DNA from: Terriglobia bacterium
GTDB taxonomy: Bacteria; Acidobacteriota; Terriglobia; Acidiferrales; UBA7541
DNA: 64,000 nt
Reading direction: 5' to 3'
Assembly: GCA_020073485.1 (NCBI GenBank)
Contig: JAIQFB010000004.1
Location: forward strand, 124,001 to 188,000
Shown here: in pieces, positions 16,037 through 44,774 of the stretch
Position numbering within the stretch: the stretch's first letter is position 1
Layout: every line of letters starts with the position of its first letter
Program-made: the position numbers and the translations under genes
The notes under the pieces: model-generated
What the model was told of the DNA's origin: nothing
Database searches by the model: none
The model's input: the letters and a program-made list of their open reading frames with translations, nothing else

Positions 16037-19000
16037 TCAGAAGCTCAACTTCAAGCCCAACTGGATCGCGCGGCTGCCCCCGTTTCCGATGACCGGGTTG
16101 TTATTCGAAACGTCAGGCGTAGCAAAGGAAGCGCCGAACGAGGAGGTCGCGCTCGGACTGTTGCCACCTGCGCCGTTGAACTGCGGATTGGCATATTGAG
16201 TCTGGTTGAGAAGATTGAAAACTTCAAAGCGGAACTGCGCGCCGAAGCGTTCCCGGAATTTCCAGTTCTTGGCAAGCGACATATCCAGGAGGTGCAAGCC
16301 GTTGCCCCGCAGGAGATTGCGGCCCATCGTGCCAAGGGTTCCCGGGGCAGGAGCGATCAGGAAAGAGCTGCCAACTGCGTAGCAGCCAAAATGGGTGAGC
16401 GAAGCCGTTGCGCCAATGGCCGCGGCCTTCCCTGCACAGGCAGCATTGTTAATGGCATAGGCGGGATCCGTGGGACCCAATGGATCGGTAGGTGGCGGCG
16501 TCCCGGGCTGAAAGAACGGGATGGGTGAGGCACCTCGGTTGCTGAAGTCGGAGGGATTTCCGTAGAAGTTCCAGCGATCTACGAGCTCTCCGGTTCCGCT
16601 CAGGTCGTTTGCGCTATCAATCACGCTCCACGGCAGGGCGCTCTGAATATTAACCATGGCATTGACCACCCAGCCTTCCAAAAGCTGTGCCGGCGATTGC
16701 CTGCCGGGGATGGCATAGGTCGAGGTGAATGTGAATCGGTGACGGATATCAAAGAAACTGCTCCCGCGTTCCAGCCCTGGGTTGTTGCTGTCGGTGGGAA
16801 CGTTGGTGTTCCAATCGTTGGAAACGTCATCAATGCCATGGGAGTAGGTATAGCCGGCCATGAACGACAGCCCACGGGAAGTCTGCTGGGTTAACGTTAA
16901 TTGCAGGCCGTTGTAGTTTGAGTTGTAATAGTTTCCCAGATAGTTGATGTTCGATAGATACGGGAACTTGCCAACGAATGGGCGGGCCGCCTGCTCGGCG
17001 GTTGTACTAACCTTGAATGCCGCGATCGCGGCCGGCGTCCATCCTCCCCCGATAGCCGGCTGGTTGAGATCAATAAGGCCGAGCAACTTCGTGCCCTTGT
17101 TTCCAACGAAAGCCATGTCCAGGGATAAAGTGTGCGTGAAAGCGTGCTGGATGCTTAGGTTCCAATTGCTTACATAAGCCGATTTGAGATTCTGATCCGC
17201 ACCCATGAGGGGACAGGGAGCGGCGTTGGTGCAACTGATGGCGGAGGTATTGGGGAAAATCGGCCCGGCTATGCTCCAGTTGAGGGGATTGCCCGGGGGA
17301 TTGAGGGTGACTGAGCCGACTGCAATATTGCCAGGGCTTGGAATGACAGTAGTAACGCCGCCGGTAGTTACTGAAATATTTGCTCCTGTGGGAACGGTGT
17401 TGAGGCCCGTGGTCACGGCGTTCGTGCCTTGCTGGGAAACGAGCAGGTTGAAGCCTTCCAGGACGTAGATGATCCCGGCGCCAGCCCGGATCACGTTCCT
17501 GCCACTGCCGGTGACATCCCAGGCAAAGCCCACTCGGGGCCCAAAGTTGTTGGGATCACCGTTGTAAGGGGAACTGATCTGCTTGCCTACCTGTACCATG
17601 CCGAGAGTTGGATCGAAGTTGCCAAGCAGGTCGTTGGCCTCCTTGACGGGCGTGACGTACTCGTAACGCAATCCCAAGTTCACGGTCAACCGGGGAGTGA
17701 CACGCCAGTCATCCTGGAGGAAGCCTGCGAATCCCCAATCGCTTAGGTGACGGCGAGGGTCTCCAACCAGGACTCTACCCTGGCTGGGCATGCCGGCCAG
17801 GAAGTCCTCCAGCGGCGACGCGCCAGCGAAAGGAACGATGCCCCGCGTTCCGAAGTTGAATGCGCCCTTTCCAGCGCGGAACGTGCCGCCGTTGTAGATG
17901 GCCTTGCGGAGTTCTCCGCCGAATTTGAAAGCGTGATTGCCGTGCAAACGGAAAATATTGTCAACGATCTCGACGTCCGTATCGGGACCCTGATATTTCG
18001 GGAAGTTGGCACAGCAGCCCAATGGAGTAAAGGACCCGCCAAATTGAATCTGCGGGAATCCACACGACGTCGCGCCCGTGTTGAGGCCGAAGTTCGGCTG
18101 GCCAATCTGCTGGCAATCACCCGGTAAACTGGGCTGGTAAAGGCGGTTGAATCCGAACCTGGCTTCATTCACCCAGTTGGAATTCGGCGTATAGTTCCAA
18201 GCCGCTCCAGCCACTTGAGACCGCGTGTGAATGCTGGTCCGCCAGTACGGCTGCACAATGTTTCCGCCCACGGCCAATCCCGAGTTGTCACCGAAGAAGT
18301 AGTACCCACCAAACTGGTGGTGATCGCTCAAATGGAAGTCCACTTTCGCCAGAGTGTTGTCCGAACGAATCTGAGTGACCGGCGCGACAGATATGTTCGT
18401 TGAAGAACCAGAATTACTCCAGATACCGGCACTCACCAGCTGAGCACTTAGGGGATTCTCCGCCACGGAGTGCGTCGCCATGTCGGCGAGAGCGTCCGGG
18501 ATGCTGTTGAATCTCCCTGCCCCAGCCGCCGATGTGGGTTCTTGAAGATTGAACGCGTTCCCCACGTTGTAGCGCTGGCCCTCATAAGCCCCGAAGAAGA
18601 ATATTTTGTCTTTTTTAATCGGTCCGCCGGCCGTTGCGCCGAACTGCTCCAGGGTCACCGCCTGTTTTGGTGTCGTGGGACTAAGAAAGGGATTTTTTGC
18701 ATCCATGGCGCTGTCGCGGCCAAACGCATAGGCAGTGCCATGAAGATCGTTGGTACCCGACTTTAGTCCGACGTTGACGATCGCTCCGGGCTTCCAGCCG
18801 TATTCCGCCTTGGGATTGACCTGGAGGTTGAATTCTTGGATGGCATCAATCGGCAAAATCGTGGAAGCGTCGCCCGCGATCCCCGCGCCATTGATCATGC
18901 TCAGAGCGGAAAACGGTTCGATGTCGCTCACGCCATCCAGGAGATAAACGTTGTGCTCGGGACGCAGCCCATTGGTGCTTTGGGTCCATGCGCCGCCGCC

Positions 19001-19531
19001 GGGATAAATCGCCACGCCGGGGCGATATTGCAGAAGATTCTGATAGTTGCGGCCATTCAACGGAAGGTCGTTGATGGTCTGATTGCTCAGCGTCCCGCCC
19101 AGGGTCGCCGTGGTCGTTTCGACCAGCGGAACATCCTCCGTGACCGTGAGCGTCTGCGTCTGCTCGCCAGGTTGGAGTTCAAAGTCCAGTCGAAGCTCCC
19201 TGCCAACTTCGAGCGTTATGCCCGCGCGTTCCGCAGTCTTGAAGCCTTTGTATTCGACTCTAATCGTATAGCTGCCCGGAGTCAGGTTGGGAGCGGAGTA
19301 CTCTCCCGCTTGATCCGTGGTCAGTGGCCTCGAGATACCTCTCGCCACGTCCAGGACCGTGACGGTCGCGCCGGTGACTACGCCGCCGGATTGATCATGA
19401 ACGTTTCCCGAAATGCGTCCGGTGTTCACCTGGGAGAACAGCGGGACGCAAAACGCAAATGCACAAACGATCAGGCCGAAAAGCCGAATCGCTTTTCTCA
19501 ATCCGACAGCTTCACCCCAATTGATATTCAT
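16037..19531 (-). CDS. TonB-dependent-type receptor (receptor A)
   Basis: 1164 aa from the ATG at 19531. A GGAGGGAGTGAAGACA ribosome site fixes this start; the frame continues upstream to 19660 through promoter DNA. Signal peptide about residues 1-34; CarboxypepD-reg domain about 36-120 (NTGRISGNVHDQSGG); TVTEDVPLVETTTATLGG linker; plug LPLNGRNYQNLLQYRPG; barrel to a C-terminal RAIQLGLKLSF. It is close to receptor B, sharing SNQTINDLPLNGRNYQNLL, YGWKPGAIVNVGLKSGTND and DSAMDAKNPF/DTPLDARNFF, so the two are recent paralogues. It heads the set receptor A, LVIVD, hydrolase 1. The upstream 300 bases hold the conserved palindrome also found before receptor B and hydrolase 3. Confidence 0.9.
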   Translation of the reverse strand: MNINWGEAVGLRKAIRLFGLIVCAFAFCVPLFSQVNTGRISGNVHDQSGGVVTGATVTVLDVARGISRPLTTDQAGEYSAPNLTPGSYTIRVEYKGFKTAERAGITLEVGRELRLDFELQPGEQTQTLTVTEDVPLVETTTATLGGTLSNQTINDLPLNGRNYQNLLQYRPGVAIYPGGGAWTQSTNGLRPEHNVYLLDGVSDIEPFSALSMINGAGIAGDASTILPIDAIQEFNLQVNPKAEYGWKPGAIVNVGLKSGTNDLHGTAYAFGRDSAMDAKNPFLSPTTPKQAVTLEQFGATAGGPIKKDKIFFFGAYEGQRYNVGNAFNLQEPTSAAGAGRFNSIPDALADMATHSVAENPLSAQLVSAGIWSNSGSSTNISVAPVTQIRSDNTLAKVDFHLSDHHQFGGYYFFGDNSGLAVGGNIVQPYWRTSIHTRSQVAGAAWNYTPNSNWVNEARFGFNRLYQPSLPGDCQQIGQPNFGLNTGATSCGFPQIQFGGSFTPLGCCANFPKYQGPDTDVEIVDNIFRLHGNHAFKFGGELRKAIYNGGTFRAGKGAFNFGTRGIVPFAGASPLEDFLAGMPSQGRVLVGDPRRHLSDWGFAGFLQDDWRVTPRLTVNLGLRYEYVTPVKEANDLLGNFDPTLGMVQVGKQISSPYNGDPNNFGPRVGFAWDVTGSGRNVIRAGAGIIYVLEGFNLLVSQQGTNAVTTGLNTVPTGANISVTTGGVTTVIPSPGNIAVGSVTLNPPGNPLNWSIAGPIFPNTSAISCTNAAPCPLMGADQNLKSAYVSNWNLSIQHAFTHTLSLDMAFVGNKGTKLLGLIDLNQPAIGGGWTPAAIAAFKVSTTAEQAARPFVGKFPYLSNINYLGNYYNSNYNGLQLTLTQQTSRGLSFMAGYTYSHGIDDVSNDWNTNVPTDSNNPGLERGSSFFDIRHRFTFTSTYAIPGRQSPAQLLEGWVVNAMVNIQSALPWSVIDSANDLSGTGELVDRWNFYGNPSDFSNRGASPIPFFQPGTPPPTDPLGPTDPAYAINNAACAGKAAAIGATASLTHFGCYAVGSSFLIAPAPGTLGTMGRNLLRGNGLHLLDMSLAKNWKFRERFGAQFRFEVFNLLNQTQYANPQFNGAGGNSPSATSSFGASFATPDVSNNNPVIGNGGSRAIQLGLKLSF

Positions 19532-20044
19532 TGTCTTCACTCCCTCCAATAAGAATTTCGCATAGGAAAGAACAGGCGGATTGGAAAACCGCAGGCATCG
19601 CCGCCATTTTGACAAAACAGCATCGCGAGAGCCGCGTCTAATATCCATGGACTCATTCACGCTTTTGACCCCACCACTAACGGAGAGGCCGTGGTCTTAG
19701 GCTTGGCGGGTGCCGCTGGATCCCTAAGTGATTTCGTCTGTCCTTAGCCGATGAAACGGGGACTTTCCCAAATGCTTGAAGGCATTCTTACGCTTGTGTG
19801 GGTTGTGCGCGCAGTGCGCTGTGTCACGCTATCGTGTGCCGTAGATCACCACATCATGTACTTTGAGTACTAGCAGGCTGTCACGAGTCGTGCTTTTGCT
19901 CATTGGAAGAATTGGTAGGAATGGCCGGAACGGCAGGCCGGAAGTGTCGCTGCTGTTTCTCTGAAAAGTTCCGTTCGGACTTAGCGCTAACTTGCGAAGG
20001 CGTTGTCGTCGGGTATTCCCCCGGCTGGGAGGCAAACGGTTTGC
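19532..20044 (-). promoter_or_regulatory. leader/promoter region of receptor A
   Basis: Gene-free 510 bases between receptor A and the S9-like hydrolase gene. It contains the conserved GTGATTTCG block (19728-19743) and the palindrome region (19811-19850), both with counterparts upstream of receptor B and hydrolase 3. Another similarity with the receptor B leader is the CATTCAC...TTGACcCCA stretch near 19653-19673. No canonical sigma-70 pair is obvious. Confidence 0.5.
19811..19850. promoter_or_regulatory. conserved palindromic operator-like element, copy A
   Basis: Core CACGCTATCGTG at 19825-19836 (arms CACG/CGTG, 4-base spacer), embedded in GTGCGCTGTGTCACGCTATC then GTGTGCC, and followed by TCACC. 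It is about 295 bases upstream of the receptor A start. Copies B and C lie at 25014-25060 and 27606-27650. Conservation extends beyond the palindrome arms, which favours a protein-binding site over chance. Confidence 0.55.
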
Positions 20045-21127
20045 TCAGTTGCCCCCGGCAGGAGTTGTGGGGGGCTTTAGCTCCGCCGTCATCTGCTGAT
20101 GTCGCGGATGCTTAAGGTGTTGGTCGAAGTAACCCATGAAGATGTCCCACGACTTTTGTTGAATGTCGTCGGGCTTGTAGGAACCGTCTTTCTGCGGGTA
20201 GATGAAGACATAGCCGTGCACGGGATGATCGAACTCCTCCCAGGTCACGTCCTTGGCCGCTTCCTTCATCCATTCATATGTCAGCTGGAAGATGCCATTC
20301 TGGTGATCGTGCACCCGCCCGAAGATCATGATCGGCATGTTTATCCGGCTGATGCGTTCCATTGCTTCGGCCTTGTTTGCCCTCTTGCGGACCACATCGA
20401 CGTTGTTGAATTGGATTTCGGTCCCTTCGCGGGGCGCTGTTGGGCCCGTGTCCACGGTCAGGAATTCGTGATCGGCCGGTTCGATCGCGATGCCCGCTCC
20501 CCAGGAATATTCGGCGGCGGCCTTCATGATCATTTCGCCGCTGTGACTTACACCCATCGATCCGATGGCGTCCTTATCGACATACGGGACAGTCTGAAGA
20601 TAGCGGACGACGGCGATCAGGTCCTCGTGATCCAGCGTGGGGCCCGATTTCAACATACGGCTGTTTCCACTGATGCTGTCCGGGAGATTCTGTGGCGGCT
20701 TGGCTTGCTCATACGCATAGGGAATTTCGTTGCGGTAGTTGATCGTGACGCATATGTAGCCGCGCGCGATCATGTGGTCCTGCATTTGCGCGAGGCGCTC
20801 CATGGTCTGAATGACTTGTTTCATTCCTCCCCGGCCCTCGCCGGAGGCCATGGTGATGGCGGGGAATGGCCCATCGCCTTTTGGCTTGCGAATGGAGATA
20901 GGCACGTAGACCTCGTCGCGGGTCAGGACAAAGACCAGATCCGCGGGGATGGACGACCCTTTGACGGGTTGGTTGGCGATCACGTAGCCATGAGTGGAGA
21001 CCGATTCGGCTGGCGCCGCTCCACCCGGCAGCTGGGCCCAAGCGGGGCTGATGACTCGGGAACCCAGGAATACCACGCCAAAAAAAGCGAGCGACCCCGC
21101 GAACAGGGTTGCCATCAAGCGTTTCAT
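20045..21127 (-). CDS. exported S9-like alpha/beta hydrolase
   Basis: 360 aa. Signal peptide about 1-31 (ending PAWAQ). Features fit the dienelactone hydrolase / prolyl-oligopeptidase-like superfamily: an N-terminal strand YVPISIRKPKGDGPFPAIT, a nucleophile elbow GVSHSGEM (about residue 192), an acid candidate near MIFGRVHDHQN and a catalytic His in DHPVHGYVF (about 310). The segment DHEDLIAVVRYLQTVPYVD is typical of S9-like proteins with an internal pseudo-dimer contact. Substrate could be a peptide, ester or acylated sugar. It lies 146 bases downstream of receptor B on the same strand, separated by a strong GC hairpin, so expression may be lowered relative to the receptor. Confidence 0.8.
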   Translation of the reverse strand: MKRLMATLFAGSLAFFGVVFLGSRVISPAWAQLPGGAAPAESVSTHGYVIANQPVKGSSIPADLVFVLTRDEVYVPISIRKPKGDGPFPAITMASGEGRGGMKQVIQTMERLAQMQDHMIARGYICVTINYRNEIPYAYEQAKPPQNLPDSISGNSRMLKSGPTLDHEDLIAVVRYLQTVPYVDKDAIGSMGVSHSGEMIMKAAAEYSWGAGIAIEPADHEFLTVDTGPTAPREGTEIQFNNVDVVRKRANKAEAMERISRINMPIMIFGRVHDHQNGIFQLTYEWMKEAAKDVTWEEFDHPVHGYVFIYPQKDGSYKPDDIQQKSWDIFMGYFDQHLKHPRHQQMTAELKPPTTPAGGN

Positions 21128-21214
21128 CGGAAACCTCCCAAAGTTGCAGGACGATGACTTGCAGCGATTTGTATTTCTACTGAGAATTCTTGCACGTGGC
21201 GCTGCTCGTAGTGT

Positions 21215-21244
21215 GGCGGGGCCGGACTTGTGTCCGGCCCCGCC
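21215..21244 (-). terminator. strong GC hairpin between receptor B and the S9-like hydrolase
   Basis: Perfect 13-base stem GGCGGGGCCGGAC / GTCCGGCCCCGCC with a 4-base loop. There is no U-run on either side, so it is not a textbook intrinsic terminator. On the minus strand it lies in the intercistronic space and could act as an attenuator or as an mRNA 3'-end stabiliser for the receptor transcript. Confidence 0.6.
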
Positions 21245-21273
21245 CGCTACTCTTTCAGATCCTCCCGCAAGGA

Positions 21274-24200
21274 CTAGAAGATGAACTTAAGACCCAACTG
21301 GATCTCGCGGGCGCCTCCCGATCCAAGAATAGGGTTGGACGCCGCCACGTCGGGCGTGGCACAGCCACAGCCCATCCCTGGGCCTGTCGAAGGATCGTTG
21401 TTGGCATAACCGTTGGCCCCCCCATATGGGTTGGCGAAGTTGGGATGGTTAAGAATGTTGAAGAACTCAGCCCGGAACTGGGAAGTGACCCGTTCCCCGA
21501 CCTTCCAAGACTTGGTCACCGACAGATCCCAGTTACGGAAGCCGGAGTCACGGAAGATACCGCGGCTTGCAGTGCCAAACGTTCCGGGGGCGGGGGGAAT
21601 CAGAACGGAGTGGCGCACTACATAACAGCCAAGACTACCAAGCTGATCTGCCATTGCCTGACCGACCGCGCGCGCCAAACAAGTGGAAGCGCCAGCGGGT
21701 GCACCGCTGACCACGCCTGTCACATGGTTGTTACCATCCACTACGAAGTTTGTGGGATCGATGTAAGGAATTGCAGTAGGACCGGATGTGAAGTCGGAGG
21801 GGTTCCCGAAGAAATCCCAACGGTCACCGTAATAGGCGGGATTGTTAACCTCGCCGGTCCCGGCGATATCGCTTCCGGTATCCTGTGCGCCCCAGGGTTG
21901 CCCGGTCTGTAGAGTCACGATGGAATTCAGCTTCCAGCCTTCCAGTAGTTGTGCAAACGACTTTTTCCCGGGGATGGCGTAGGACATCGTGAAAGTGAAA
22001 CGATGCCGAATGTCGAAGTCGCTGTTCCCGTACTCCGCCCTAAGATTGTTGAGGTCTTGTGCGGGGCCGTATCCCCAGTTGCTGGAAGATTGATCGAGAG
22101 CATGGGCGTAAGTGTAACCGACGACAAAGGACAGCCCGTGAGAAGTCCGCTGAGTCAGAGTCGCCTGCAGCCCGTTATAGTTAGAGTGATAAGCGTTCCC
22201 TACTTGGTTGATGGCCGCCAGGAAGGGGAACTTCGTGCCAAACGCAGATAGTCCAGTCGCGGGATTTACCTGGTTTATATCCTCGATGCTTATCAGCTTC
22301 GTGCCATGGTTGCCGACGTAACCAAGCTCAAGGGAAAGATTATTAGTAAAGGCGTGCTGGACGTTCAGGGTCCAGGAGGTCACATAGGGGGTACGCAGAT
22401 TGGGCGCCACCGACAGGATGTTGCAGGGGCTAGCACCGCAATTGATATGGTTGGCGCTGGAGAAGACCGGCCCGGCAACGGTCCAGTTGATCGCGGAACC
22501 CGGGAGGCTGAGGGCACCGGTATCGATCGTGCCGTTACCCGGCAGCACCCCGAGGCCTCCGGTGGGAATAATGTTGATGCCTAGTTGGTTGTTGAGCAAC
22601 AGGAACGTATTGTAGGCAATCTCCTCGTACACGATCCCGCCTCCTGCCCGAATTACAGTCGTCCCTTTGCCCGTGACATCCCACGCGACGCCCAGTCGTG
22701 GCGCGAAGTTGTTGTGATCGCCGTTATAAGGAGATTTGATCTGTTGGCCCACCTGTACAAGTCCGACGGCCGGGTCGAAGTTGCCAAGCAGGTTATGGGC
22801 CTCCACCATGACCGTGTTCAACTCGTAGCGCACTCCAAGGTTCACGGTCAGTTTCGGTGTGACACGCCAGTCATCCTGCAGGAAGGCTGCAAACCCCTCA
22901 TTGTGCAAATGACGAACAGGGTCCCCAACAAGAAGACGCCCGTCTCTGGGAATGCCTTCCAGAAAGGTCTGCAAGGTCCTGAATCTGACGCGACCGTTGG
23001 CACTTCGAAATGCGGCACCGTTAACGTTATTGCGCCGAATTTCGCCGCCGAACTTAAAGGCGTGGTTGCCGTGCAAATACGAGACGTGATCCACGAACTG
23101 GAAGACCTCGTCGGGCCCCTGTTGTTTCAGCAAGGTACCCCCCAATTGGCTAGTGCCAAAAGTGCCAATGAGAATCGCCGGCATTCCAAAATACTTGGGA
23201 TTTGTTACGCCCGTGTTGATGCCGTAGGTTGTGGGATTGACGCTGTTGTCGACGGGAAAGGTGGGCTGGTAAAGGCGCGAAAAACCAAACCGTGATTCAT
23301 TTACCCAAATGGAATTCGGCGCCCAGGTCCAGTTTTCTCCAAGCACTTGAGCCCGCGTGTGAACAAGCGACTCCCATTGTGGCGCCAGTTGGGTTGGCGC
23401 ATCATTGACGTTACCTGAGCTGTCGCCAATGAAATACTCGCTGGTCAACGTGTGGTGGTCATTGATGTGGTAATCGACCTTCGCGATCCCGTTGTCTTCC
23501 CGGACGTGGCTGGGTAACGCAGGGTTAACGAAATTTGGACCCAACGCATTGCCCCCATTATTGGTGGGGTACAAGCCCGGGGTTACTCTCTGGCAGCTCG
23601 TGTTCAAGCCCGCCAAGTTCAAGCTGAGTTGATTCAGCTCCCCCGTCGGCAAAGCTTTACAGGCGTCTATGATGCTATTGGCTGGATCACCCGCAGGATT
23701 GGAGGGTGTGGCCAGCGAAACCGTGGTCGGACTAAGCACATTGTACACTTGCGTCACTGTAAATCGTTGACCCTCGTAGCCCAGGAAGTAGAAGAGTTTG
23801 TCTTTCTTAATGGCCCCACCCGCGGTAGCGCCGAACTGCTCCAGGGCCCGTGGGGCCTTCGTTGGGGTCGGGTCCGTCACTCTGTTGAAGAAGTTGCGCG
23901 CATCCAAAGGGGTATCGCGGCCAAACGCGTAAGCGGTACCATGAAGATCGTTCGTACCCGACTTCAGCCCAACGTTGACGATGGCCCCCGGCTTCCAACC
24001 GTATTCCGCGCGGGGATTTTCCTCGGTGTTGAATTCCTGGATGGCATCCACGGGCAAGATCGTGGTCGTATCGCCAAACAGGGGCGCCCCATTGACAATG
24101 CTCTGGGCGGAGAAAGGTTCGTCGTTGTTCAGACCGTCCATCATGAAGACATTGTCCTCGGGACGAGTGCCGTTAGTGCTCAGGGTGGAGAATCCGCCTC

Positions 24201-24732
24201 CGGGGTAACGCGTGATTCCCGGGCGCACAGTGAGCAGATTCTGGTAGTTGCGCCCGTTCAAGGGCAGGTCATTGATCGTCTCGTTGCTGAGTGTTCCGCC
24301 CAGCGTGGCATTCGTGGTTTCGATCAGCGGAAGCGCTTCGGTGATTGTAATCGTCTGGCTCTGCTCGCCAGGCTGGAGTGTAAAATCAGCCCGAATGTCC
24401 TTACCGACTTCCAACCCAATGTCCGGGCGCTCGGCAGTCTTGAATCCCCTAGCCTCGACGCGGACCTTATATGTGCCGGGGACAAGATCGGGAGCAGCGT
24501 AGCCGCCCGATTCATCCGTGGTCAAGGTTCGCGAAACCCCTCTTTGCACATCCATGACGGTCACAGTGGCGCCCGCGATGGCGCCGCCGCTCTGGTCCAT
24601 GATGTTTCCCAGAATACGACCTGCATTTCCTTGCGAAAATAACGAAACGCAAAGCAACATCGAGCCGAAGATTAAACTAAGCAACCGGCTCGCTTTTCTC
24701 AATCCAATCGTTATACCTGCACGAGTTTTCAT
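21274..24732 (-). CDS. TonB-dependent-type receptor (receptor B)
   Basis: 1152 aa from the ATG at 24732, which has AGGGGTGG eight or nine bases upstream; the open frame extends to 25182 through promoter DNA and is not used. Signal peptide about 1-36; CarboxypepD-reg domain about 38-120 (NAGRILGNIMDQSGG); the linker TITEALPLIETTNATLGG; plug LPLNGRNYQNLLTVRPG; barrel ending REIQLGLKFIF. It is paralogous to receptor A along its length. It is followed by the S9-like hydrolase gene and is divergent from hydrolase 2; the 500-base divergent region holds palindrome copy B. Confidence 0.9.
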   Translation of the reverse strand: MKTRAGITIGLRKASRLLSLIFGSMLLCVSLFSQGNAGRILGNIMDQSGGAIAGATVTVMDVQRGVSRTLTTDESGGYAAPDLVPGTYKVRVEARGFKTAERPDIGLEVGKDIRADFTLQPGEQSQTITITEALPLIETTNATLGGTLSNETINDLPLNGRNYQNLLTVRPGITRYPGGGFSTLSTNGTRPEDNVFMMDGLNNDEPFSAQSIVNGAPLFGDTTTILPVDAIQEFNTEENPRAEYGWKPGAIVNVGLKSGTNDLHGTAYAFGRDTPLDARNFFNRVTDPTPTKAPRALEQFGATAGGAIKKDKLFYFLGYEGQRFTVTQVYNVLSPTTVSLATPSNPAGDPANSIIDACKALPTGELNQLSLNLAGLNTSCQRVTPGLYPTNNGGNALGPNFVNPALPSHVREDNGIAKVDYHINDHHTLTSEYFIGDSSGNVNDAPTQLAPQWESLVHTRAQVLGENWTWAPNSIWVNESRFGFSRLYQPTFPVDNSVNPTTYGINTGVTNPKYFGMPAILIGTFGTSQLGGTLLKQQGPDEVFQFVDHVSYLHGNHAFKFGGEIRRNNVNGAAFRSANGRVRFRTLQTFLEGIPRDGRLLVGDPVRHLHNEGFAAFLQDDWRVTPKLTVNLGVRYELNTVMVEAHNLLGNFDPAVGLVQVGQQIKSPYNGDHNNFAPRLGVAWDVTGKGTTVIRAGGGIVYEEIAYNTFLLLNNQLGINIIPTGGLGVLPGNGTIDTGALSLPGSAINWTVAGPVFSSANHINCGASPCNILSVAPNLRTPYVTSWTLNVQHAFTNNLSLELGYVGNHGTKLISIEDINQVNPATGLSAFGTKFPFLAAINQVGNAYHSNYNGLQATLTQRTSHGLSFVVGYTYAHALDQSSSNWGYGPAQDLNNLRAEYGNSDFDIRHRFTFTMSYAIPGKKSFAQLLEGWKLNSIVTLQTGQPWGAQDTGSDIAGTGEVNNPAYYGDRWDFFGNPSDFTSGPTAIPYIDPTNFVVDGNNHVTGVVSGAPAGASTCLARAVGQAMADQLGSLGCYVVRHSVLIPPAPGTFGTASRGIFRDSGFRNWDLSVTKSWKVGERVTSQFRAEFFNILNHPNFANPYGGANGYANNDPSTGPGMGCGCATPDVAASNPILGSGGAREIQLGLKFIF

Positions 24733-25236
24733 CGTATCCACCCCTGAGAACAAATTTTCGACATTGAGAGACCGCACGATATTAGGCTTTGCAGACATCA
24801 GCGCCTGTTCGGGAAAAATAATGTCATGCGAGCCCTGTTTGACTCCGATTGGTTCATTCACAATCTTGACTCCATATCTGGTCGATGAGCTGTGGCTTGG
24901 GGGGTATCCCGGGGCTACTAAACTGGCGCGTGATTTCGTCTGTCCAACACCTGTCGAACTGGAGCTATCCCCCAAGAACTTTACGACATGCTTACGCTGG
25001 CGCGGGTTGCGCGCGCCGTGTCCTGTGTCACGCTGCCGTGTGTCGCTGGTCACTGCAACGCGCACACTGCACACTGAGACTCCCCGTGACTCTATGCATG
25101 CTGGCGGAACGGTTCGGACGACTAGCCTCTTGAATCGCAGCAATATCTTCGGCCTGGCAATGTCAGAAGAAGCGATACACATAGCTGCGGCCGCAGGAAT
25201 TCGCCCGACGCAAAATCCGTTCGCGGAGGAAGAATC
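24733..25236. promoter_or_regulatory. divergent promoter region, receptor B / hydrolase 2
   Basis: Gene-free 500 bases between two divergent genes. Holds the GTGATTTCG block (24930-24945) and palindrome copy B. GGAGGAAGAATC just before 25237 is the ribosome site of hydrolase 2. One regulator bound here could serve both directions. Confidence 0.55.
25014..25060. promoter_or_regulatory. conserved palindromic operator-like element, copy B
   Basis: Core CACGCTGCCGTG at 25029-25040, within CCTGTGTCACGCTGCC then GTGTGTC, followed by GGTCACTGCA. It is about 297 bases from the receptor B start (almost the same distance as copy A to receptor A) and about 200 bases from the hydrolase 2 start. A run of CACACTG/CACACTGAG follows and may contain extra half-sites. 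Confidence 0.55.
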
Positions 25237-26346
25237 ATGTCTTCATCGGGATCGGCAAAGTGCAAAGTATCGTCTCTTACCGACAACTTGCGGTTGCGAG
25301 GTGGGTCACGTTTCCTGGCGTTTGCAGTGGGAGCATTGCTCGCGATCCTTGGAGGCGTGGCTGCAGCCGCAGCGGCAAATGATCCAGCCTCCATCCAAGG
25401 GCTTACGTCCAAGTTTGTGGACGTCAATGGCGTGAGAACGCGGTACTACGAAATGGGACAGGGTGAACCGATGGTGCTCGTCCATGGAGGGTCCACAGCT
25501 GGATCTTCCACCGCGAATGTCTGGTCCCGGAACATTCCAGGCCTTGCAAAACATTTCCACATCTTTGCCGTAGACCGACTCGGCTCCGGCATGACGGACA
25601 ACCCGCTTGAAGATAAGGATTACAGCACCCAAAGCCAGGTGGAGCATATTTATCAATTCATTCAGACCTTGAAATTGGGGCAAGTTCATCTGGTCGGTCA
25701 TTCCGCCGGCGGCGGAATCGTTTTCTTCCTGGCCATCTTGCATCCGGAAATCGTCCGCACACTCACCGTGGTCGCCCACGGACCGGAAGCACCGAGTGCT
25801 GACCCCAACGGAGGTCCGACCAAACTCGAGGCAGAACTGAAAAAATGCCCTGACCAGACGCAGTACGCGGGCCTGAAGTGCCGGGTAGTCGAACTCGCCT
25901 GGCTCCCCACCACCTTCGATGACCAGTATTGGGCGGCAGATGTGTACATGGCGACCCTGCCGAAGTCCAAACAAGCACGCGACAAAATCAATGCGGGGGC
26001 GGGCGAAGCCGAACGCAAAGCGTTCCCCGCCTGGCGTGCCACGCTTTGGGACAAAGTGAGAAAGGACGGCGTTCTGCAAGTACCGGTGCTGCTTTACGCA
26101 GGGAAAAACGACGTGCTCGATTGGGCGGCCGGCGATGCCACGGCAAAACTCTCCGGAGAATTGGGTCTATTCGACATCATTGCCGCAAAAAACACTCGAG
26201 TGCGCATGATCGTCCAAAATAACGGCGGCCATTTTATGTACCGGGAGTATCCCGAGCAATTCAACCAGGATTTGCTTGGTTTCATTGATTACTTCGAGCA
26301 TCACACGGACGTGCCGCCACAAGGCCAGCTGCAATTGCCGAAGTAG
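25237..26346 (+). CDS. exported alpha/beta hydrolase (hydrolase 2)
   Basis: 369 aa with a GGAGGAAG ribosome site. The hydrophobic export segment is about residues 26-47 (FLAFAVGALLAILGGVAAAA), preceded by a charged stretch. Core motifs: VLVHGGSTAGSS, nucleophile elbow GHSAGGG (about 155), NDVLDWAAGD (about 290) and the catalytic His in NNGGHFMYREYP (about 330). Closest in the window to hydrolase 1: both keep the CPDQTQYAGLKCR insert, which places two Cys residues that could form a disulfide in the periplasm. Divergent from receptor B and convergent with hydrolase 3. Confidence 0.87.
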   Translation: MSSSGSAKCKVSSLTDNLRLRGGSRFLAFAVGALLAILGGVAAAAAANDPASIQGLTSKFVDVNGVRTRYYEMGQGEPMVLVHGGSTAGSSTANVWSRNIPGLAKHFHIFAVDRLGSGMTDNPLEDKDYSTQSQVEHIYQFIQTLKLGQVHLVGHSAGGGIVFFLAILHPEIVRTLTVVAHGPEAPSADPNGGPTKLEAELKKCPDQTQYAGLKCRVVELAWLPTTFDDQYWAADVYMATLPKSKQARDKINAGAGEAERKAFPAWRATLWDKVRKDGVLQVPVLLYAGKNDVLDWAAGDATAKLSGELGLFDIIAAKNTRVRMIVQNNGGHFMYREYPEQFNQDLLGFIDYFEHHTDVPPQGQLQLPK

Positions 26347-26384
26347 GAGCGCACAAGGGCTGCATTTCCAAATTGCTACAATTC

Positions 26385-27470
26385 CTAGTGAGCCTCGGCC
26401 GCCTTCATGGACGGCACTCCTGGATGTTGTTCCCAATAATTGATGAAATTGATGACGTTGGTGTTGAATTCATCGGGATATTCGCGGAAATGGAAATGCC
26501 CGGCGTCGTTGACGGTGATCATCCGCACCCTGGGATTTTTGGCTCCCAGGACGTCGTACAGCGCCCACCCGTTCTGGATCATAGCGGAGGGATCGTCGTG
26601 TCCCCAGTACAGCAGGATCGGAACCTGCAGGATGCCTTCGTTCTTGATACGATCCAGTTGCGGCACTTTCCAGGCGTTAAATTCGTTATTCGGCCGCATG
26701 TCGTAAAGCGGCGCGCCGGCCCCGGCCTTGACGTTCGCGACGGTCTGCTGCGATTTCGGGAGGCCGGCCATATATTTTCCCGCTTCGAAGTATTCGTCGT
26801 CGAAGGCCAGGTCGGGTCTCTTGGTGATGGCCTGGATTCTGCATTTCCACTCTTCCGCATCCTCCTTTGGACAATTGCCAATGGCTTCCTGACGCCGTGT
26901 TGGAGGACCTGGAGGGGCCGCCGTGTTGCTGTCACATAGCACAAGGTCCCGGACGATTTCCGGATGCTTCACCGCGAGGAACAGGATATCCCCGGAGCCG
27001 TGCGACTGCCCGACCAGGTGAACCGGGCCGAGCTTCATCACGATGATGAACTGGTACAGGTGCTCGATTTCGCCCGGAAGATTGTAATCGTTCAGGTCCT
27101 TGGGATTGTCAGTCATTCCCGAGCCGATCTTGTCGAGTGCAAACACGTGAAAACGTTTTGCCAGGCCGGGAATATTCTTGGACCAGGCGTTGGCGCTGGA
27201 ATGCCCCGACCAGCCTTCGCCGTGCACCAGCACCATGGGTTCGCCGGAGCCCATTTCGTAATAGCGAGTACGGATCCCATTCACGTCCACAAACTTTGCC
27301 TTCAGGCCGTTCACTTCGCCATTGGGAGAAACATCGGCCCGAGCGCGGCTTCCCGTAAAAAGGAACACCAGCGCGGCGGCAATCGCGAACATGTGCGGCA
27401 ATCCTGATCGGCAAGAGCTCCGGCGGTCGCAAAACGCGAGCGCTCGGCGGCTTTGGATCTTATGCGACAT
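26385..27470 (-). CDS. exported alpha/beta hydrolase with variant nucleophile elbow (hydrolase 3)
   Basis: 361 aa; GGAGG lies nine bases before the ATG. Export segment about residues 25-45. It shares the GLKAKFVDVNGIRTRYYEMG start with hydrolases 1 and 2, but the elbow reads GQSHGSGD rather than GHSAGGG, and the insert between core and cap has diverged. The His motif is NDAGHFHFREYP. The different elbow suggests a different substrate from its two paralogues. It is convergent with hydrolase 2 (38 bases apart) and divergent from the NTF2-like gene. Its upstream region carries palindrome copy C. Confidence 0.85.
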   Translation of the reverse strand: MSHKIQSRRALAFCDRRSSCRSGLPHMFAIAAALVFLFTGSRARADVSPNGEVNGLKAKFVDVNGIRTRYYEMGSGEPMVLVHGEGWSGHSSANAWSKNIPGLAKRFHVFALDKIGSGMTDNPKDLNDYNLPGEIEHLYQFIIVMKLGPVHLVGQSHGSGDILFLAVKHPEIVRDLVLCDSNTAAPPGPPTRRQEAIGNCPKEDAEEWKCRIQAITKRPDLAFDDEYFEAGKYMAGLPKSQQTVANVKAGAGAPLYDMRPNNEFNAWKVPQLDRIKNEGILQVPILLYWGHDDPSAMIQNGWALYDVLGAKNPRVRMITVNDAGHFHFREYPDEFNTNVINFINYWEQHPGVPSMKAAEAH

Positions 27471-27945
27471 GATTTGAAGACCTCCATCGTTCGGCGATCA
27501 CAGGATCGTTTTGGCGCGCCGCGCCCTGCTGCCCGATTCCATTCGATCAAAGTGATTTCGCCGCAACACCTTAAATTTTATTTTCATGCTGATCGGTCAT
27601 GGGTGCGGTGCGCTATGTCACACTTTCGTGTGCCATGGGTCACTGCATCGCTCGTACTGCATCCTGACACTTACAATCATTTAGTTGGTGCCGGCAGATT
27701 GGTTCGGAATGCCTGCTGCAAGAATCGCCGCAGCAGATATGCATTTGGCGAGCCTGCCGAAATCGAACGAAGCGCTCGGAAAAGATAACGATAGCGCAAT
27801 GCCAGTCGCGATTGCAGGAATCAAGCTGCACGACGGCGGGTTGTTTTGAGAATCCGGCAATCCAGAAATCCTCATCCATGAGTACGGTGGAAGAAGCCTC
27901 CGAGGGTCCAGGAAAACAATGTTGTTTAAGTCAAAGGAGCGCACT
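27471..27945. promoter_or_regulatory. divergent region, hydrolase 3 / double NTF2-like gene
   Basis: Gene-free 475 bases. It contains a GTGATTTCG block with AACACCT (27553-27571) and palindrome copy C. A ribosome site AAAGGAGC precedes the ATG at 27946. The short frames on either strand have no family resemblance. Confidence 0.5.
27606..27650. promoter_or_regulatory. conserved palindromic operator-like element, copy C
   Basis: Core CACACTTTCGTG at 27619-27630 (extended arms CACA/TGTG), within GTGCGCTATGTCACACTTTC then GTGTGCC, followed by GGGTCACTGCATCG. It is about 149 bases from the hydrolase 3 start, closer than copies A and B to their genes. Flanking identity with copies A and B covers about 40 bases. 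Confidence 0.55.
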
Positions 27946-28818
27946 ATGAATCGTTTCGCTACGAAGACCTTCGTTTTGGGCATGGTCTGCGCGGGTATTC
28001 TGGCGCTGCCCGCAAGCAGGCCCGCAGCCGCCGCGGAGAACGATGCGGCGGTGCTCCAACTCGACAAAGCATTCGTGCAAGCAGTGGCAAAGCACGACCC
28101 GGCGGCGCTGAGCAAAGTCCTCGACAATGATTTCTTGTGGACCGATGCGTCGGGAGAGACACTTTCGAGGGCCAAGGCCCTGGCCGCATTGCCAGTGCCG
28201 ATGATGGGTGATGAAAACGGGGCGGAAGTGAGCGAGCGTTCATATGGCGAGGTTGCTGGCGTCCAAGTCGCTAACGGGAAGCAACACGTGGTGCGCATCT
28301 GGGTGAAGCGGCCCGCGGGCTGGCGATTGTTGGATTACCAGGAAGTCAAACAAGTCGACGTGGCGCCGGCACCCGGACCTACCACGAACGAGTGCATCAA
28401 CCCGTGCAAGACCGTGCCGTTCACTCCGAAGAACGAGGGCGAAGCGGGAGTCATCAAATCCTGGTCCACGCTGGAGACTGCCGTCACCAACCACGATCCG
28501 AAAGGCTGGGATCCCCATTTCCTCGACGAGTTCGTGCTGATCTCGTCGAACGGCACGCAAGTGATGACCAAGGCGGACCGCCTGAAAACGCTGGCCAAGC
28601 CCGGTATAGGTCCCGCGCCGCCAGGATTGGTTCACGCACAAATGTTCGATTTCCCCGGCGATCATCCGGAAACGATCGTGATGATCGCAACGGCCCAGGG
28701 CTATAGCGGCAAGCCGGTCCATATCTCGCGTATCTGGGCCAAGCGAGACGGCATGTGGAAGATGGCATTCAGCTATCAGACGACGATTCAGTCAGCTCCC
28801 GCGGTAATGCCGAATTAA
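27946..28818 (+). CDS. exported protein with two NTF2-like (DUF4440/SnoaL-type) domains
   Basis: 290 aa from the ATG at 27946, chosen for its AAAGGAGC ribosome site and the clean signal peptide ending PAAAAE. Two consecutive NTF2-like domains follow. The first (about 28-130) reads LQLDKAFVQAVAKHDPAALS...FLWTDASGETLSR; the second (about 165-285) reads SWSTLETAVTNHDPKGWDPHF...FVLISSNGTQVMTK. Both end with the RIWxKRxxxWRL/KM strand typical of DUF4440. Such domains form cone-shaped pockets and serve as small enzymes or ligand binders; no catalytic set can be named. A pair of Cys (CINPCKTV) marks the linker. Divergent from hydrolase 3. Confidence 0.8.
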   Translation: MNRFATKTFVLGMVCAGILALPASRPAAAAENDAAVLQLDKAFVQAVAKHDPAALSKVLDNDFLWTDASGETLSRAKALAALPVPMMGDENGAEVSERSYGEVAGVQVANGKQHVVRIWVKRPAGWRLLDYQEVKQVDVAPAPGPTTNECINPCKTVPFTPKNEGEAGVIKSWSTLETAVTNHDPKGWDPHFLDEFVLISSNGTQVMTKADRLKTLAKPGIGPAPPGLVHAQMFDFPGDHPETIVMIATAQGYSGKPVHISRIWAKRDGMWKMAFSYQTTIQSAPAVMPN

Positions 28819-40951: not shown

Positions 40952-43900
40952 CTAGAACATAAGTTTCAACGCGAGCTGAATCTGCCGCGACGTCGCGCTC
41001 CCGGTGGTCGTAATGGCTCCGCCGCTGGGATAGTTGTGGTTGCCCGGGATGGCGAAGTCCGCGTGGTTGAGAAGATTGAAAATCTCCACGCGAAACTCCA
41101 TGTTCCCGTTCTCTCCCAGTTGCCGGATGGCCGTGTCCTTCAGCAGGGAGAAATCCAGATTCGACAGCCCGGGGCCCCGCAACATGTTCCGCGGTTCATT
41201 GCCCAAGAAGCCGGCAGGCTGGAGCGTAAAGGCGCAGGGGTCGAACCACAGATTGGGAGTGCCCAGAGGCGTCCCTGCAGCAATCGTCACGGTCCCCGGT
41301 TTACCCGGGTTGATGATACAGCCAGGGGAAGTGCCGTGCGTAATGCTGTAAACGCTGCGGCCCGGCACCAAATCCGGCCGGTCCAGATTCGTCCCGCCGC
41401 TGAACACCGCGGACCCAGACTGATTATTCGCGAGGTTTACGGTAAAGGGATAGCCCGTCTGAATCGATTCGATGCCGCTCACCTGCCAGCCGTTCGCGAC
41501 TTTTGGCAGCAGGCCCGATTTCCCGGACATTTGAGGCAGGCGATAGGTGGCATTGAAGCGCCAATTGTGCGTGGCGTCGTAATTGGAGACGGCGTAATCC
41601 GGCCAATTGTGGAATGCGTCGACCGGGTAGACCGGCGCCGAACTCATCTCGTTGGGCGCTTCGGATTGAGGGAAGTCCATCATCTTGCTCCAGGTGTAAG
41701 CGCTTTGAAATTGCAGCCCCTTGGTGACTCGCTTGTTCAGCACCACTTGGAGCGCGTTGTAGTTTGAGCTCGCCGCCCCGGTTTGCAAGAGGATGCTGGC
41801 CCAGGCGGGGTTGATATAGGGATTGGGGTTTACCCCAGCAACAGTCGGAGCCCAGCACGCCGTTGCCGATCCATCCATCATGCTTGTTAAATCGCGGGTC
41901 CCCGAAGTAAGGGGCACGCAGGTTTCAACTCCGCCCACGACCGAAGGGACGCCATTCGGCTGCCTGGGGTTGGCATCGCGACGCGACATCAGGTTGAGTC
42001 CCCGCGAGCCCGCATAGGCCACGCTCAGGCCCATGGAGAAGGGCAACTGTTGCTCCAGGGTCAGGTTGTAGGACAACAGATGCTGCTGCTTGATGTTGTA
42101 ATCGAACAAGGCGATGTCGTGCGCGATGATTGCCGTGCTTACTGGAAATGGAATTGTCACCGTAATTGGAGACGAAGCCGAACCGAGTATCGTGCTGGTG
42201 GTGGTGAATGGCTTTTCGTTTGTCTGGATCACGTCCATGGCAGTGCCGTAGGGGCTGAGATCATACAAGAGGGCATACCCTCCCCGTACGGCCGTCTTGC
42301 CGTTTCCCCTCACATCCCAGGCGAAGCCGAGCCGCGGACTCGCGTTGTGCAACGTCGGGTTCTTAAACGGAGGTCCCACCGTCGGGCTGGCATCGGTCCG
42401 GACATTCACCAGGGCATCCTGAACGCCATTTTTTTCGTGCAACTGTGTCATGAATTCGTAGCGCAGACCGAGGTTCAATGTGAAGCGAGAGGTAACCCGG
42501 AAGTCGTCCTGGGCGTAGAACCCGATTGTGGTGGAGCGGTAATCGCGGACCAGACTTGAAGTGGGCGTGAGATACGCCAATGTTGCAGACGTTTTTCCCT
42601 GCAGGAATTCCGAGATGGAGTTGAAGGTCGCCGTGCCGCGGTAGCCTCGGGCGGTGTAGTTATGCTGCTGGTAGCGGTTGATGAGCGTTCCAAACTTGAA
42701 CGAATGACGGCCCCGCGTGTAGAAGATGTCGTCGCCCCAACTGAGAATGTTCTGCGGCAGGTACGCCGGAGCAGTTGGGAATGGACCCATGGGGGAAATT
42801 GCTACGCCCGCAATATTGATGAGCCCAAGATCGGCGGTAGCAGCTCCCGGAACAAACTGGTATTGCGAACCAGCGTAAGGGGAACCAGAGTCGATTCGGG
42901 GCGTTGTCCGGCTAACGGAGAATCGTGCCGTATTCAACAGGGACGGAGAGAAAACATGGTTCTCCGCCAGAGTGGTGTATTGGCTCTGGCTGCTTATGTC
43001 CATCGTGAACCCGGGATAGGACCAAGGCCCCGCATTTTGAATCACGGAACTATGTAACGATCCATTGTCGATGGTGTACCGGGCAAACAGGCTGTCGTTC
43101 GCCGAAAATGTATGATCGACACGAATCTGCCCATAGTCGTCTCGGGTCGGCGCGACAAATGGATACGTGAATCCGTTGTTGGGCATATTGGAGTTCGGGT
43201 ATAGCGCCAGCAGGGGAAGGATCTGTGTGGCCACGGTGCATCCTCCGCACCCCGGGTTAGCTGTCGCCACATGGTCCGCGGCGGGGAATACAGTGTCAAC
43301 GATCGTAACTCCCAGCCGCTGTCGCACTCCTTCGTAAACCGCAAAGAAAAATGTTTTGTCTTTCTGGATCGGACCTCCAAACGCTCCGCCGAAGTTGTTC
43401 CGCTGAAAGGGCGGCAGCCTCTTTCGCGGATACGTAAGACTTTTGTCGGTGCCAAAGCCGTTTATGTTTGCGGTATCCGTCGCGTCGAAGAAGTTTCTGG
43501 CGTCCAGTGCGCTATTCCGCAGATATTCGAACACGTCCCCGGACCATTTATTTGCTCCGCCCTTGCTCACCATCAGCACCTGACTGCCCATAGTCATCCC
43601 GTACTCGGCGCTGAATGAATTGGTAATGATGCGGTATTCCCGGATTCCGTCCACCCCCAGGGTGTAGCCAGAGGCGGAAGCCGAATTGACTCCTTGCAGA
43701 TTGGACATGGAAGCGCCGTCCAATAGAAAGTTATTGGAGTGCACGGGCGCCCCGTTACTGCTGTACCAGAGGCCGACGTTCGAGGGGTTCGCTCCCAGAC
43801 TTCTATGCTGTGTGATTCCGGGCTGCAGAAGTGTCAGGTCCACGTAGTTGCGGCCGTTCATGGGAAGCTGGGCAACCTGCTGCTCGTCCACAAGGCCTCC

Positions 43901-44317: not shown

Positions 44318-44432
44318 TGCAATCCTCCCTGTTGACGCGTCCGGAATACTTCCACCCCAAAAAGATTGTCATGATCGTGATATGACTTGCGCGAGCTTGC
44401 CACGGCTTTTACTTTGGCTAGGAGAATAAAGA

Positions 44433-44448
44433 TGTGACCGCTGTCATA
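44433..44448 (-). promoter_or_regulatory. CRP/FNR-like inverted repeat upstream of receptor 5
   Basis: TGTGACCGCTGTCATA matches the CRP half-site layout TGTGA-N6-TCACA at nine of ten positions. It lies 115 bases upstream of the receptor 5 start codon. A single match of this kind in 64 kb has limited weight. Confidence 0.35.
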
Positions 44449-44465
44449 CGGCAAGGTGATTGAAG

Positions 44466-44774
44466 TCACATGCCTTCATGCCGTGGAGCGCCCGGAAAGT
44501 CGACGCGCAGATAGTCAGGGCGTGCGGAGAGAAACTGGCGTAAGCCCATCGCCGATTGCCAAACGGGAGGCAGCGGTTGGCCTGCGCGCATCTGTTGCGC
44601 ACGATCGTCCAAAGGATGTGGACAGTGCGCACAACGCACACTCAAGTTCCGTCCTGCACGATAAGGTTGCCGTGGTTGGTTGTTCGGTTCTTTATCCGGC
44701 AGGTCTTCCATCGGCACAGGGGGGTAGGCAAGGGGCGCGCACCATAATTTCTGATGTCTTTTTTCGGGCTGCAC
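44466..44774 (-). pseudogene. possible relic with CAHC knuckle and DRAQQMRAGQPLPP motif
   Basis: A 102-codon frame containing CAHCPHPLDDRAQQMRAGQPLPP. The DRAQ.MR.GQPLPP segment is shared with the short frame at 2092-2214, with DNA-level similarity over about 43 bases. There is no ribosome site and the flanks look non-coding. It may be a fragment of a family of unknown function, or a short zinc-knuckle protein. Confidence 0.3.

Follow-up and report, generated by a model that had tools for sequence, protein, structure and literature searches.

The window analyzed here, a stretch of 64,000 nucleotides from a Terriglobia bacterium, contains two large receptors of one family, each with a start guessed from its signal peptide. 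Receptor A (1164 aa; 16037..19531, minus strand), which we take to be an Oar-like TonB receptor, has an OMP_b-brl_4 barrel and a CarboxypepD_reg domain, and receptor B (1152 aa) lies at 21274..24732 on the minus strand. Divergent from receptor B is alpha/beta hydrolase 2 (25237..26346, plus strand), followed by alpha/beta hydrolase 3 (26385..27470, minus strand) and, divergent from the latter, a gene for a DUF4440 protein (27919..28818, plus strand), the start region of which has a duplicate at the end of contig C13 of the same genome. A further receptor, of PF25183 type, lies at 40952..44317 on the minus strand (row G000:C36:164976-167570).

An earlier note on this DNA had described three near-identical blocks centered on a palindrome, and all three are present where it placed them, i.e., CACGCTATCGTG at 19825, CACGCTGCCGTG at 25029, and CACACTTTCGTG at 27619, with a single occurrence of each in the window. 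Even with up to six mismatches allowed, the 27-base block that surrounds these palindromes occurs in the window at just these three places. The symmetry, however, had been misread. On the gene strand, the block consists of two adjacent 14-base boxes of the Crp/Fnr type, GTGA-N6-nCAC, with a gap of exactly 8 bases (22 bp from center to center), so that the quoted palindrome is the seam between two boxes and the true symmetry resides in the boxes that flank it. The inverted repeat GTGA-N6-TCAC of a CRP-type operator is found, with many of the listed sites being fully symmetric; copies A to C depart from this symmetric form since the far half of each of their boxes reads GCAC or ACAC instead of TCAC.

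Double box A (19814..19849, minus strand) has its outer box at 19836-19849 (GTGATCTACGGCAC) and its inner box at 19814-19827 (GTGACACAGCGCAC), separated by the 8-base spacer, and lies 282 bp upstream of the guessed start of receptor A. Double box B (25018..25053, minus strand; outer box 25040-25053, inner box 25018-25031) precedes receptor B by 285 bp and the divergent hydrolase 2 by 184 bp, while double box C (27608..27643, minus strand; outer box 27630-27643, inner box 27608-27621) stands 138 bp ahead of hydrolase 3, with the divergent DUF4440 gene 276 bp away. The window holds a fourth double box, with one mismatch, at 44434..44469 on the minus strand (outer box 44456-44469, inner box 44434-44447), 116-117 bp upstream of the PF25183-type receptor. 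Chance is an unlikely source of these three perfect and one near-perfect double boxes, because ten composition shuffles of the window yielded a mean of only 0.2 at up to two mismatches.

The same arrangement recurs across the genome. At up to one mismatch, the genome gave 76 matches compared to 3 for a reversed-pattern control, and these fall at 46 places, of which 36 are outside ORFs of at least 140 aa (19 of 22 for the places without mismatch). When the gap was left free between 0 and 30 bases, 27 of the 31 strand matches in this genome had a gap of 8, as did 326 of 537 in a set of 101 genomes, some 46 times what the other gaps have on average; the reversed-pattern control yielded 32 strand matches with a free gap and two at gap 8. 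The double box is very probably an operator, as the earlier note had proposed for its block. The palindrome pattern CACRCTnnCGTG, by comparison, has only four matches in this genome at up to one mismatch; at two mismatches, it has three (L005, L006, and L007, with L006 inside a large ORF).

No regulator gene is evident in the window, in agreement with the earlier note; candidate regulators are encoded elsewhere, the nearest on the same contig, about 26 kb to the left of the window start (C36:97571). The genome has six Crp-type genes above the curated cut-off. Three genes adjoining double boxes, which lie 45, 50, and (with one mismatch) 336 bp upstream of them, belong to the Crp/Fnr superfamily, with both cNMP_binding and HTH_Crp_2 domains above the curated cut-off. 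Of the four close Crp/Fnr paralogues whose N-terminus carries cysteines, three have the pair upstream; genes of the CxxCP subclass, defined below, lie at C41:166233 and C42:95832, and a pair is found at C41:167072. Three proteins reach 56-59 bits against the NCBIfam CRP equivalog cut-off of 266 bits, and the NCBIfam FNR cut-off is not reached by the regulators. A PDB search with the N-terminal part of the regulator retrieved weak Crp-family matches only (E 0.5 or more), and an AlphaFold model generated from six sequences has a mean pLDDT of 46, too low for the model to be of use.

Regulator matches from this genome and its relatives numbered 85, of which two at contig edges (G027 and G041) were left out, as was a duplicate fetch of the G043 gene; of 83 loci, 76 were scored, the other seven having given no ORF match with a simple caller (one of these, in G009:C4, has the pair 54 bp upstream). 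A pair within 450 bp upstream was found at 29 of 34 loci of the subclass with a CxxCP...C pattern, compared to 4 of 19 loci with CxxC not followed by P and 3 of 23 of the rest (7 of 42 together; Fisher 1.7e-9 for the first subclass against the others, a value inflated by related species and leaders). The pattern sorts the subclasses imperfectly, since 11-12 of the 23 loci in the rest class still have the cysteines by alignment. The cysteines are arranged as C-x2-C-x8-C-x38-C, where the first three define both CxxC subclasses and every aligned member of the two (33 of 33, 19 of 19) has the fourth. By genome, again with inflation from related species and leaders, boxes are found in 37 of the 50 genomes with a regulator match and in 4 of the 51 without one, and within the family in 32 of 36 and 2 of 25, respectively. 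The exact double box is absent in 13 of the 50 genomes with a match, and G053 has eight double-box strand matches although it has no regulator match. Among cultured species, Silvibacterium bohemicum S15 has the pair. Binding of the boxes by a Crp/Fnr regulator is a prediction, drawn from adjacency and co-occurrence.

In class II promoters, the box is centered about 41.5 bp upstream of the transcription start and the -10 hexamer follows 22 bp past the box. We looked for such a hexamer in gene-facing flanks, omitting sites inside ORFs of at least 140 aa, the three regulator sites of this genome, and flanks that no gene faces within 450 bp. Across 29 regulator sites, a TATAAT-like hexamer peaks at an offset of 22 past the inner box (2.66 of 6 matches, background 1.28, reached in 0 of 1000 rotations), and the same offset stands out in 35 flanks of this genome without regulator genes, copies A to D included (2.11, background 1.41, 6 of 1000 rotations). 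The class II distance is therefore seen in two sets, with the starts themselves being predicted, and the position of this peak would put the inner and outer boxes near -41.5 and -63.5. In the window, the corresponding minus-strand hexamers are TAAGAA (19785..19790; 23 bp past inner box A and within 1 bp of the peak), TAAGCA (24989..24994; 23 bp past inner box B), AT-rich GAAAAT (27580..27585; 22 bp past inner box C), and TAAAAG (44406..44411; 22 bp past the inner box of the fourth pair). Sigma-54 and ECF41-like promoter readings were dropped by eye because the spacing did not fit the consensus.

We consider it likely that the block is the paired operator of an autoregulated Crp/Fnr activator which combines FNR-like cysteines with a CRP-like recognition helix. 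As 22 bp corresponds to two helical turns, two dimers of the regulator would be neighbors on the same face of the DNA, one on each GTGA-N6-nCAC box. The regulator would most likely be of the CxxCP subclass, with its four cysteines (putative ligands of an Fe-S cluster) and the recognition helix RETVTR, which is found in all four paralogues of this genome and has the RExxxR form of CRP that is linked to GTGA half sites. It would control its own genes through the same paired operator and act mainly as a class II type activator, as the inner box lies near -41.5, while the outer dimer near -63.5 may contribute cooperativity in binding or a further contact with RNA polymerase. A wider regulon, possibly responsive to redox or low oxygen, would then include receptors A, B, and D (the last on another contig) and the receptor at 40952.

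The same operator could have a different reader, i.e., a CxxC-not-P or other Crp/Fnr paralogue, or several with overlapping specificity, which is compatible with the explanation above and which we regard as doubtful. The recognition helix, where caught by pattern, is RE-x-x-x-R in all subclasses, this genome alone offers the six Crp-type genes mentioned, and G050, G055, and G060 have boxes while the homologues found in them are not of the CxxCP subclass by motif pattern; the concentration of upstream boxes at that subclass speaks against such a reader. Differing in sign only is the rather unlikely case of repression, in which the two dimers would block RNA polymerase. A box centered at -41.5 covers part of the -35 region, and negative autoregulation is common, but a class II activator requires just such a fixed distance of 22 bp from inner box to -10 as is seen across many promoters, whereas a repressor would tolerate more positions.

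The preferred reading of a paired activator operator has also to be set against the kinship of the leaders. A fourth copy of the block, D, was found on another contig (G000:C13:111524). Over 121-124 bp, leader A shares 73% identity with leader B and 71% with leader D. Between C and D, the identity is 95% across 421 bp, on the side of double box C that faces the DUF4440 gene and extending about 100 bp into that gene, which makes part of copy C a recent duplication. Judged by these alignments, copies A to D are related leaders and not independent occurrences, and the match between C and D enters coding DNA, whereas the earlier note had held that the copies match in non-coding DNA only; the circumstance that it named as counting against a regulon, that of segmental duplicates, applies in part, C and D sharing a recent duplicate and the leaders of A, B, and D being homologous. 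The motif GTGATTTCG, noted as lying nearer the gene in A to C, is indeed found at 19728, 24930, and 27552 but is not specific, since it matches also at 31738 (plus) and 11466 (minus); in A and B it is part of the longer common leader, and copy D differs there. The distances of A, B, and D to the guessed start codon (282-289 bp) are greater than at most regulator sites. A leader profile (R1; 126 positions, without structure) has strong matches in this genome at A to D only (E 8.7e-18 or better), and it was through its weak matches in G001, G060, and G020 (E 1e-4 to 0.02 per genome) that the two-box layout was recognized; at E up to 1, it matches in 43 of 101 genomes, and most of the other weak matches are probably chance.

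This kinship could mean that A to D are functionless remains of duplicated leaders or of gene conversion, which we judge improbable. Consistent with inert homology, the best leader match among the receptor homologues of 28 relatives is E 0.014 over 37 bp, and none of these homologues (one per genome, within the stretch fetched) has a double box at up to one mismatch, so control of the receptors is not seen to be conserved. However, identity among the receptors is only about 46-51%, and the protein of this genome that is closest to D (L033, 55%) has no leader match to A, B, or C of comparable strength, which argues that an unconstrained leader would hardly be alignable; moreover, the same double-box architecture stands at more than 40 other places in the genome.

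The earlier note had further proposed a dedicated operator linking TonB receptors with hydrolases around the palindrome, which is very improbable on present evidence. Copies do adjoin receptor A, receptor B together with hydrolase 2, and hydrolase 3, yet at up to two mismatches the double box is found in only 4 of the 42 receptor leaders scanned (up to 700 bp each, some much shorter, with guessed starts), and, the leaders of A to D being related, a receptor-hydrolase regulon is not supported as stated. The genome scan did return sites that are mostly intergenic, as given above, but these are not concentrated at receptors or hydrolases; among 30 neighboring proteins at other places (Pfam), seven are transcription regulators, three of them Crp/Fnr, and the remainder is mixed (universal stress protein, P-type cation ATPase, HypD, and others). 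Nor is the palindrome a conserved unit, since in 60 relatives it has, at up to one mismatch, a single genome match, which we read as lying within the reading frame of a hydrolase. The length of the leaders in A, B, and D (about 285 bases) and the inverted repeats might suggest a mobile repeat or a structured leader RNA, but either is extremely improbable, given that RNAalifold on the four leaders found 1 of 17 pairs changed on both sides (covariation term -0.94) and that the many copies alike beyond the element which an interspersed repeat or MITE would show are not seen, as the leader profile scores strongly in this genome at A to D only, whereas the boxes by themselves are widespread.

The Acidobacteriota belong to the most common bacteria of soils. 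In this bacterium, the predicted paired switch stands at dozens of places, frequently before Crp/Fnr regulator genes, and many relatives have it too; it would represent a Crp/Fnr variant that appears to read DNA as a fixed pair of dimers. This computational analysis yields a concrete predicted operator together with a candidate regulator and a set of predicted target promoters, each of which can be tested in culture. A broader reading, possible but tentative and by our estimate short of probable, is that of a Terriglobia-wide system in which a new type of Fe-S regulator, with a new four-cysteine arrangement and CRP-like specificity, would bind as a dimer of dimers to obligatory 22-bp pairs and regulate itself, Oar-like TonB receptors having been recruited here into its redox regulon. 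Neither a genome-wide 22 bp pair nor a Crp/Fnr regulon in Acidobacteriota was found among the titles and abstract openings that a literature search listed, and the words "tandem" and "Acidobacter" are absent from the main text of PMC8510549 and PMC9603854.

Compared to known systems, the sites resemble the E. coli CRP operator in box length, inverted repeat, GTGA core, and class II distance from inner box to -10, but they are paired with a dominant spacing of 22 bp, and their candidate regulator has FNR-like N-terminal cysteines. The E. coli operator reads TGTGA-N6-TCACA. FNR proteins are [4Fe-4S] oxygen sensors with the cysteines C-x2-C-x5-C plus a far fourth and a TTGAT box; the regulators share with them the cNMP_binding fold, HTH_Crp_2, and an N-terminal CxxC...C, and their structure matches include entries named "FNR type regulator" (e.g., 5cvr). 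In contrast to FNR, their cysteines do not follow that ligand pattern, the third standing eight residues after the second, and both recognition helix and boxes are CRP-like (GTGA) rather than TTGAT. The tandem CRP or FNR promoters of enterobacteria likewise place two dimers at one promoter, but there the spacing varies between promoters, whereas here one spacing dominates the genome and many of its relatives.

The conserved unit upstream of these genes is, on sequence comparison, a pair of Crp/Fnr-type boxes set 22 bp apart. A search of the window confirmed the three blocks, A (upstream of receptor A), B (receptor B/hydrolase 2) and C (hydrolase 3), where an earlier note had placed them, with no further copy of the 27-base block there at up to six mismatches, and a search of the whole genome (5.05 Mb, 46 contigs) with the palindrome core found a fourth copy, D, close to the end of contig C13, in front of a further receptor from the family of receptors A and B. 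At two mismatches the core gave three further matches in the genome versus one control match, one of the three (L006) lying inside a large ORF. A profile built from the four leaders found weak matches in relatives, and the aligned part that was kept reads GTGA-N6-nCAC, eight bases, GTGA-N6-nCAC; the palindrome that the note took as the unit instead runs from the end of one box across the spacer into the start of the second. When 0 to 30 bases were permitted between boxes, with the reversed pattern as a control, a gap of 8 accounted for 27 of the 31 strand hits in this genome (control, 1) and for 326 of 537 over 101 genomes, this one included, about 46 times the mean of another gap; the control gave 32 strand hits over all gaps in the 101 genomes, and the 2 at gap 8 both came from one genome. 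Strand hits outnumber places because symmetric sites are counted on both strands; the window sites deviate from the symmetric box form. One genome of the same class (G043) has 12 free-gap strand hits with none at gap 8, and may thus use another spacing or a repeat family.

The leader, receptor and C/D identities show that copies A-D are not independent: leaders A, B and D are old relatives with one well-kept block, and C carries a recent duplicate. Over 121-124 bp, leader A is 73% identical to B and 71% to D, and the receptors behind these three leaders are about 46-51% identical to one another. C and D share 95% identity across 421 bp (window 27600-28020 and G000:C13:111508-111928), a stretch that extends from the element and reaches roughly 100 bp into a DUF4440 gene; contig C13 terminates within its copy of this segment. 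The earlier view that the copies are no simple duplication and match only in non-coding DNA does not hold for the recent C/D duplicate. L033, the nearest relative of D in this genome by protein (55%), has a leader without a comparable match to those of A, B or C. All three sites recur with identical letters at identical coordinates in a relative from the same family (G029). When the best receptor homologue from each of 28 relatives was compared, no leader match was better than E 0.014.

At up to one mismatch the pair occurs at 46 places in this genome (76 strand hits; control, 3). The note had suggested a genome-wide scan, and the matches are indeed mostly non-coding: 36 of the 46 places and 19 of the 22 exact ones lie outside ORFs of at least 140 aa, B being scored as inside only because its ORF extends upstream beyond the likely start. 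In two clusters the boxes form triple arrays in 22-bp steps: one (C36:114603 and 114625, spanning 114603-114660) lies upstream of an Rrf2-type regulator, the other (C28:200468 and 200490, spanning 200468-200525) upstream of a DUF6152 protein. A Pfam scan of 30 neighbouring proteins, one of which points towards its site and some of which lie several hundred bases off, left 4 without a match and gave 7 transcription regulators (three Crp/Fnr, an Rrf2, an Xre-type HTH, a PAS-sigma-54 regulator and a Trans_reg_C protein); the remainder is mixed and includes Usp, a P-type cation ATPase, HypD (286 bp), a molybdopterin oxidoreductase, a TPP enzyme, and TonB, AsmA-like and ankyrin proteins.

The proposal that one operator links TonB receptors with hydrolases is not borne out as it stands. 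Receptors do belong to the box-carrying set, since with two mismatches allowed 4 of 42 receptor leaders scanned have the pair (those of A, B, D and the receptor at 40952-44317, whose double box is at 44434; mean of 50 shuffles, 0.16), but they are not its core, the other neighbours being mixed. Control of receptors by the pair was not seen in relatives: with one mismatch allowed, none of the best receptor homologues from the 28 relatives had a double box. Sites A, B and D lie 282-289 bp from the guessed start codon, a distance that calls for a long leader. The genome holds about 40 PF25183-type receptors in 5 Mb (57 match rows, some being pieces of one gene).

Exact pairs were found in 41 of the 101 genomes (this one and 100 relatives). 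In a draw of 297 genomes from the phylum, 29 had any pair: 16 among the 33 from this genome's class (itself included) and 13 among the 264 others, where genomes with pairs had at most 4 strand hits each. The control gave 5 strand hits over the draw. A scan of named genomes gave Acidobacteriota names on 39 of 80 among the matches listed and one Prevotella MAG with 22-bp arrays on 14 of 80, the others being scattered. This uncultured MAG, RUG759, has serial GTGAC-N4-GTCAC-like boxes with an exact 22-bp period (L262, L263, L286, L292, L298, L307, L327, L329 and L333), which may be a repeat family or the Bacteroidota equivalent of this operator pair.

Promoter geometry is consistent with activation. 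Across 29 regulator promoters, similarity to TATAAT is highest 22 bases beyond the inner, gene-proximal box (2.66 of 6; background 1.28; 0 of 1000 rotations as high), and 35 gene-facing flanks in this genome, regulator genes excluded, have their maximum at this offset too (2.11; background 1.41; 6 of 1000), although effective numbers are smaller because some promoters and flanks are orthologues or related leaders. The -10-like hexamers are TAAGAA at site A and TAAGCA at site B (both at offset 23) and TAAAAG at site 44434 (offset 22); site C has GAAAAT (offset 22). The peak would therefore put the inner box near -41.5 and the outer near -63.5 relative to the predicted start. A box at -41.5 is where a class II activator binds, and here a second dimer would sit two helical turns further up.

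The candidate regulator is itself of the Crp/Fnr type. This genome has six Crp-type genes over the curated cut-off, and four of them are close paralogues, with 44-62% identity to the first. The pair stands upstream of three of this genome's Crp/Fnr genes, at 45 bp (C41), 50 bp (C42) and 336 bp (C36, where the pair has one mismatch). A homologue at E <= 1e-40 occurs in 50 of the 101 genomes; 37 of these 50 have boxes versus 4 of the 51 without it, and for the family alone the counts are 32 of 36 versus 2 of 25, tests that are inflated by the relatedness of the genomes. Several genomes have the regulator without pairs or pairs without the regulator. When 76 of 83 examined loci, our own included, were sorted by N-terminal motif into classes whose labels are ours and imperfect, the pair (up to one mismatch, within 450 bp upstream) was present at 29 of 34 loci of the CxxCP...C class versus 4 of 19 with CxxC not followed by P and 3 of 23 others. 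At the best locus per genome (n=30) the pair was upstream in 23 and on the 3' side in 4; in a pattern scan of named public records, a homologue adjoins the pair in 6 of 80 among the matches listed. We propose cooperative binding of the double box by two dimers of a regulator that is FNR-like and may carry an Fe-S cluster; this regulator would activate its own gene together with a mixed regulon that may be redox-related.

The helix RETVTR, common to the paralogues in this genome, fits the RExxxR that reads GTGA in CRP. FNR, in contrast, reads TTGAT and spaces its cysteines differently, whereas here the boxes are GTGA and what defines both CxxC subclasses is a set of three cysteines, C-x2-C-x8-C, with a fourth 38 residues further in 52 of 52 aligned members.
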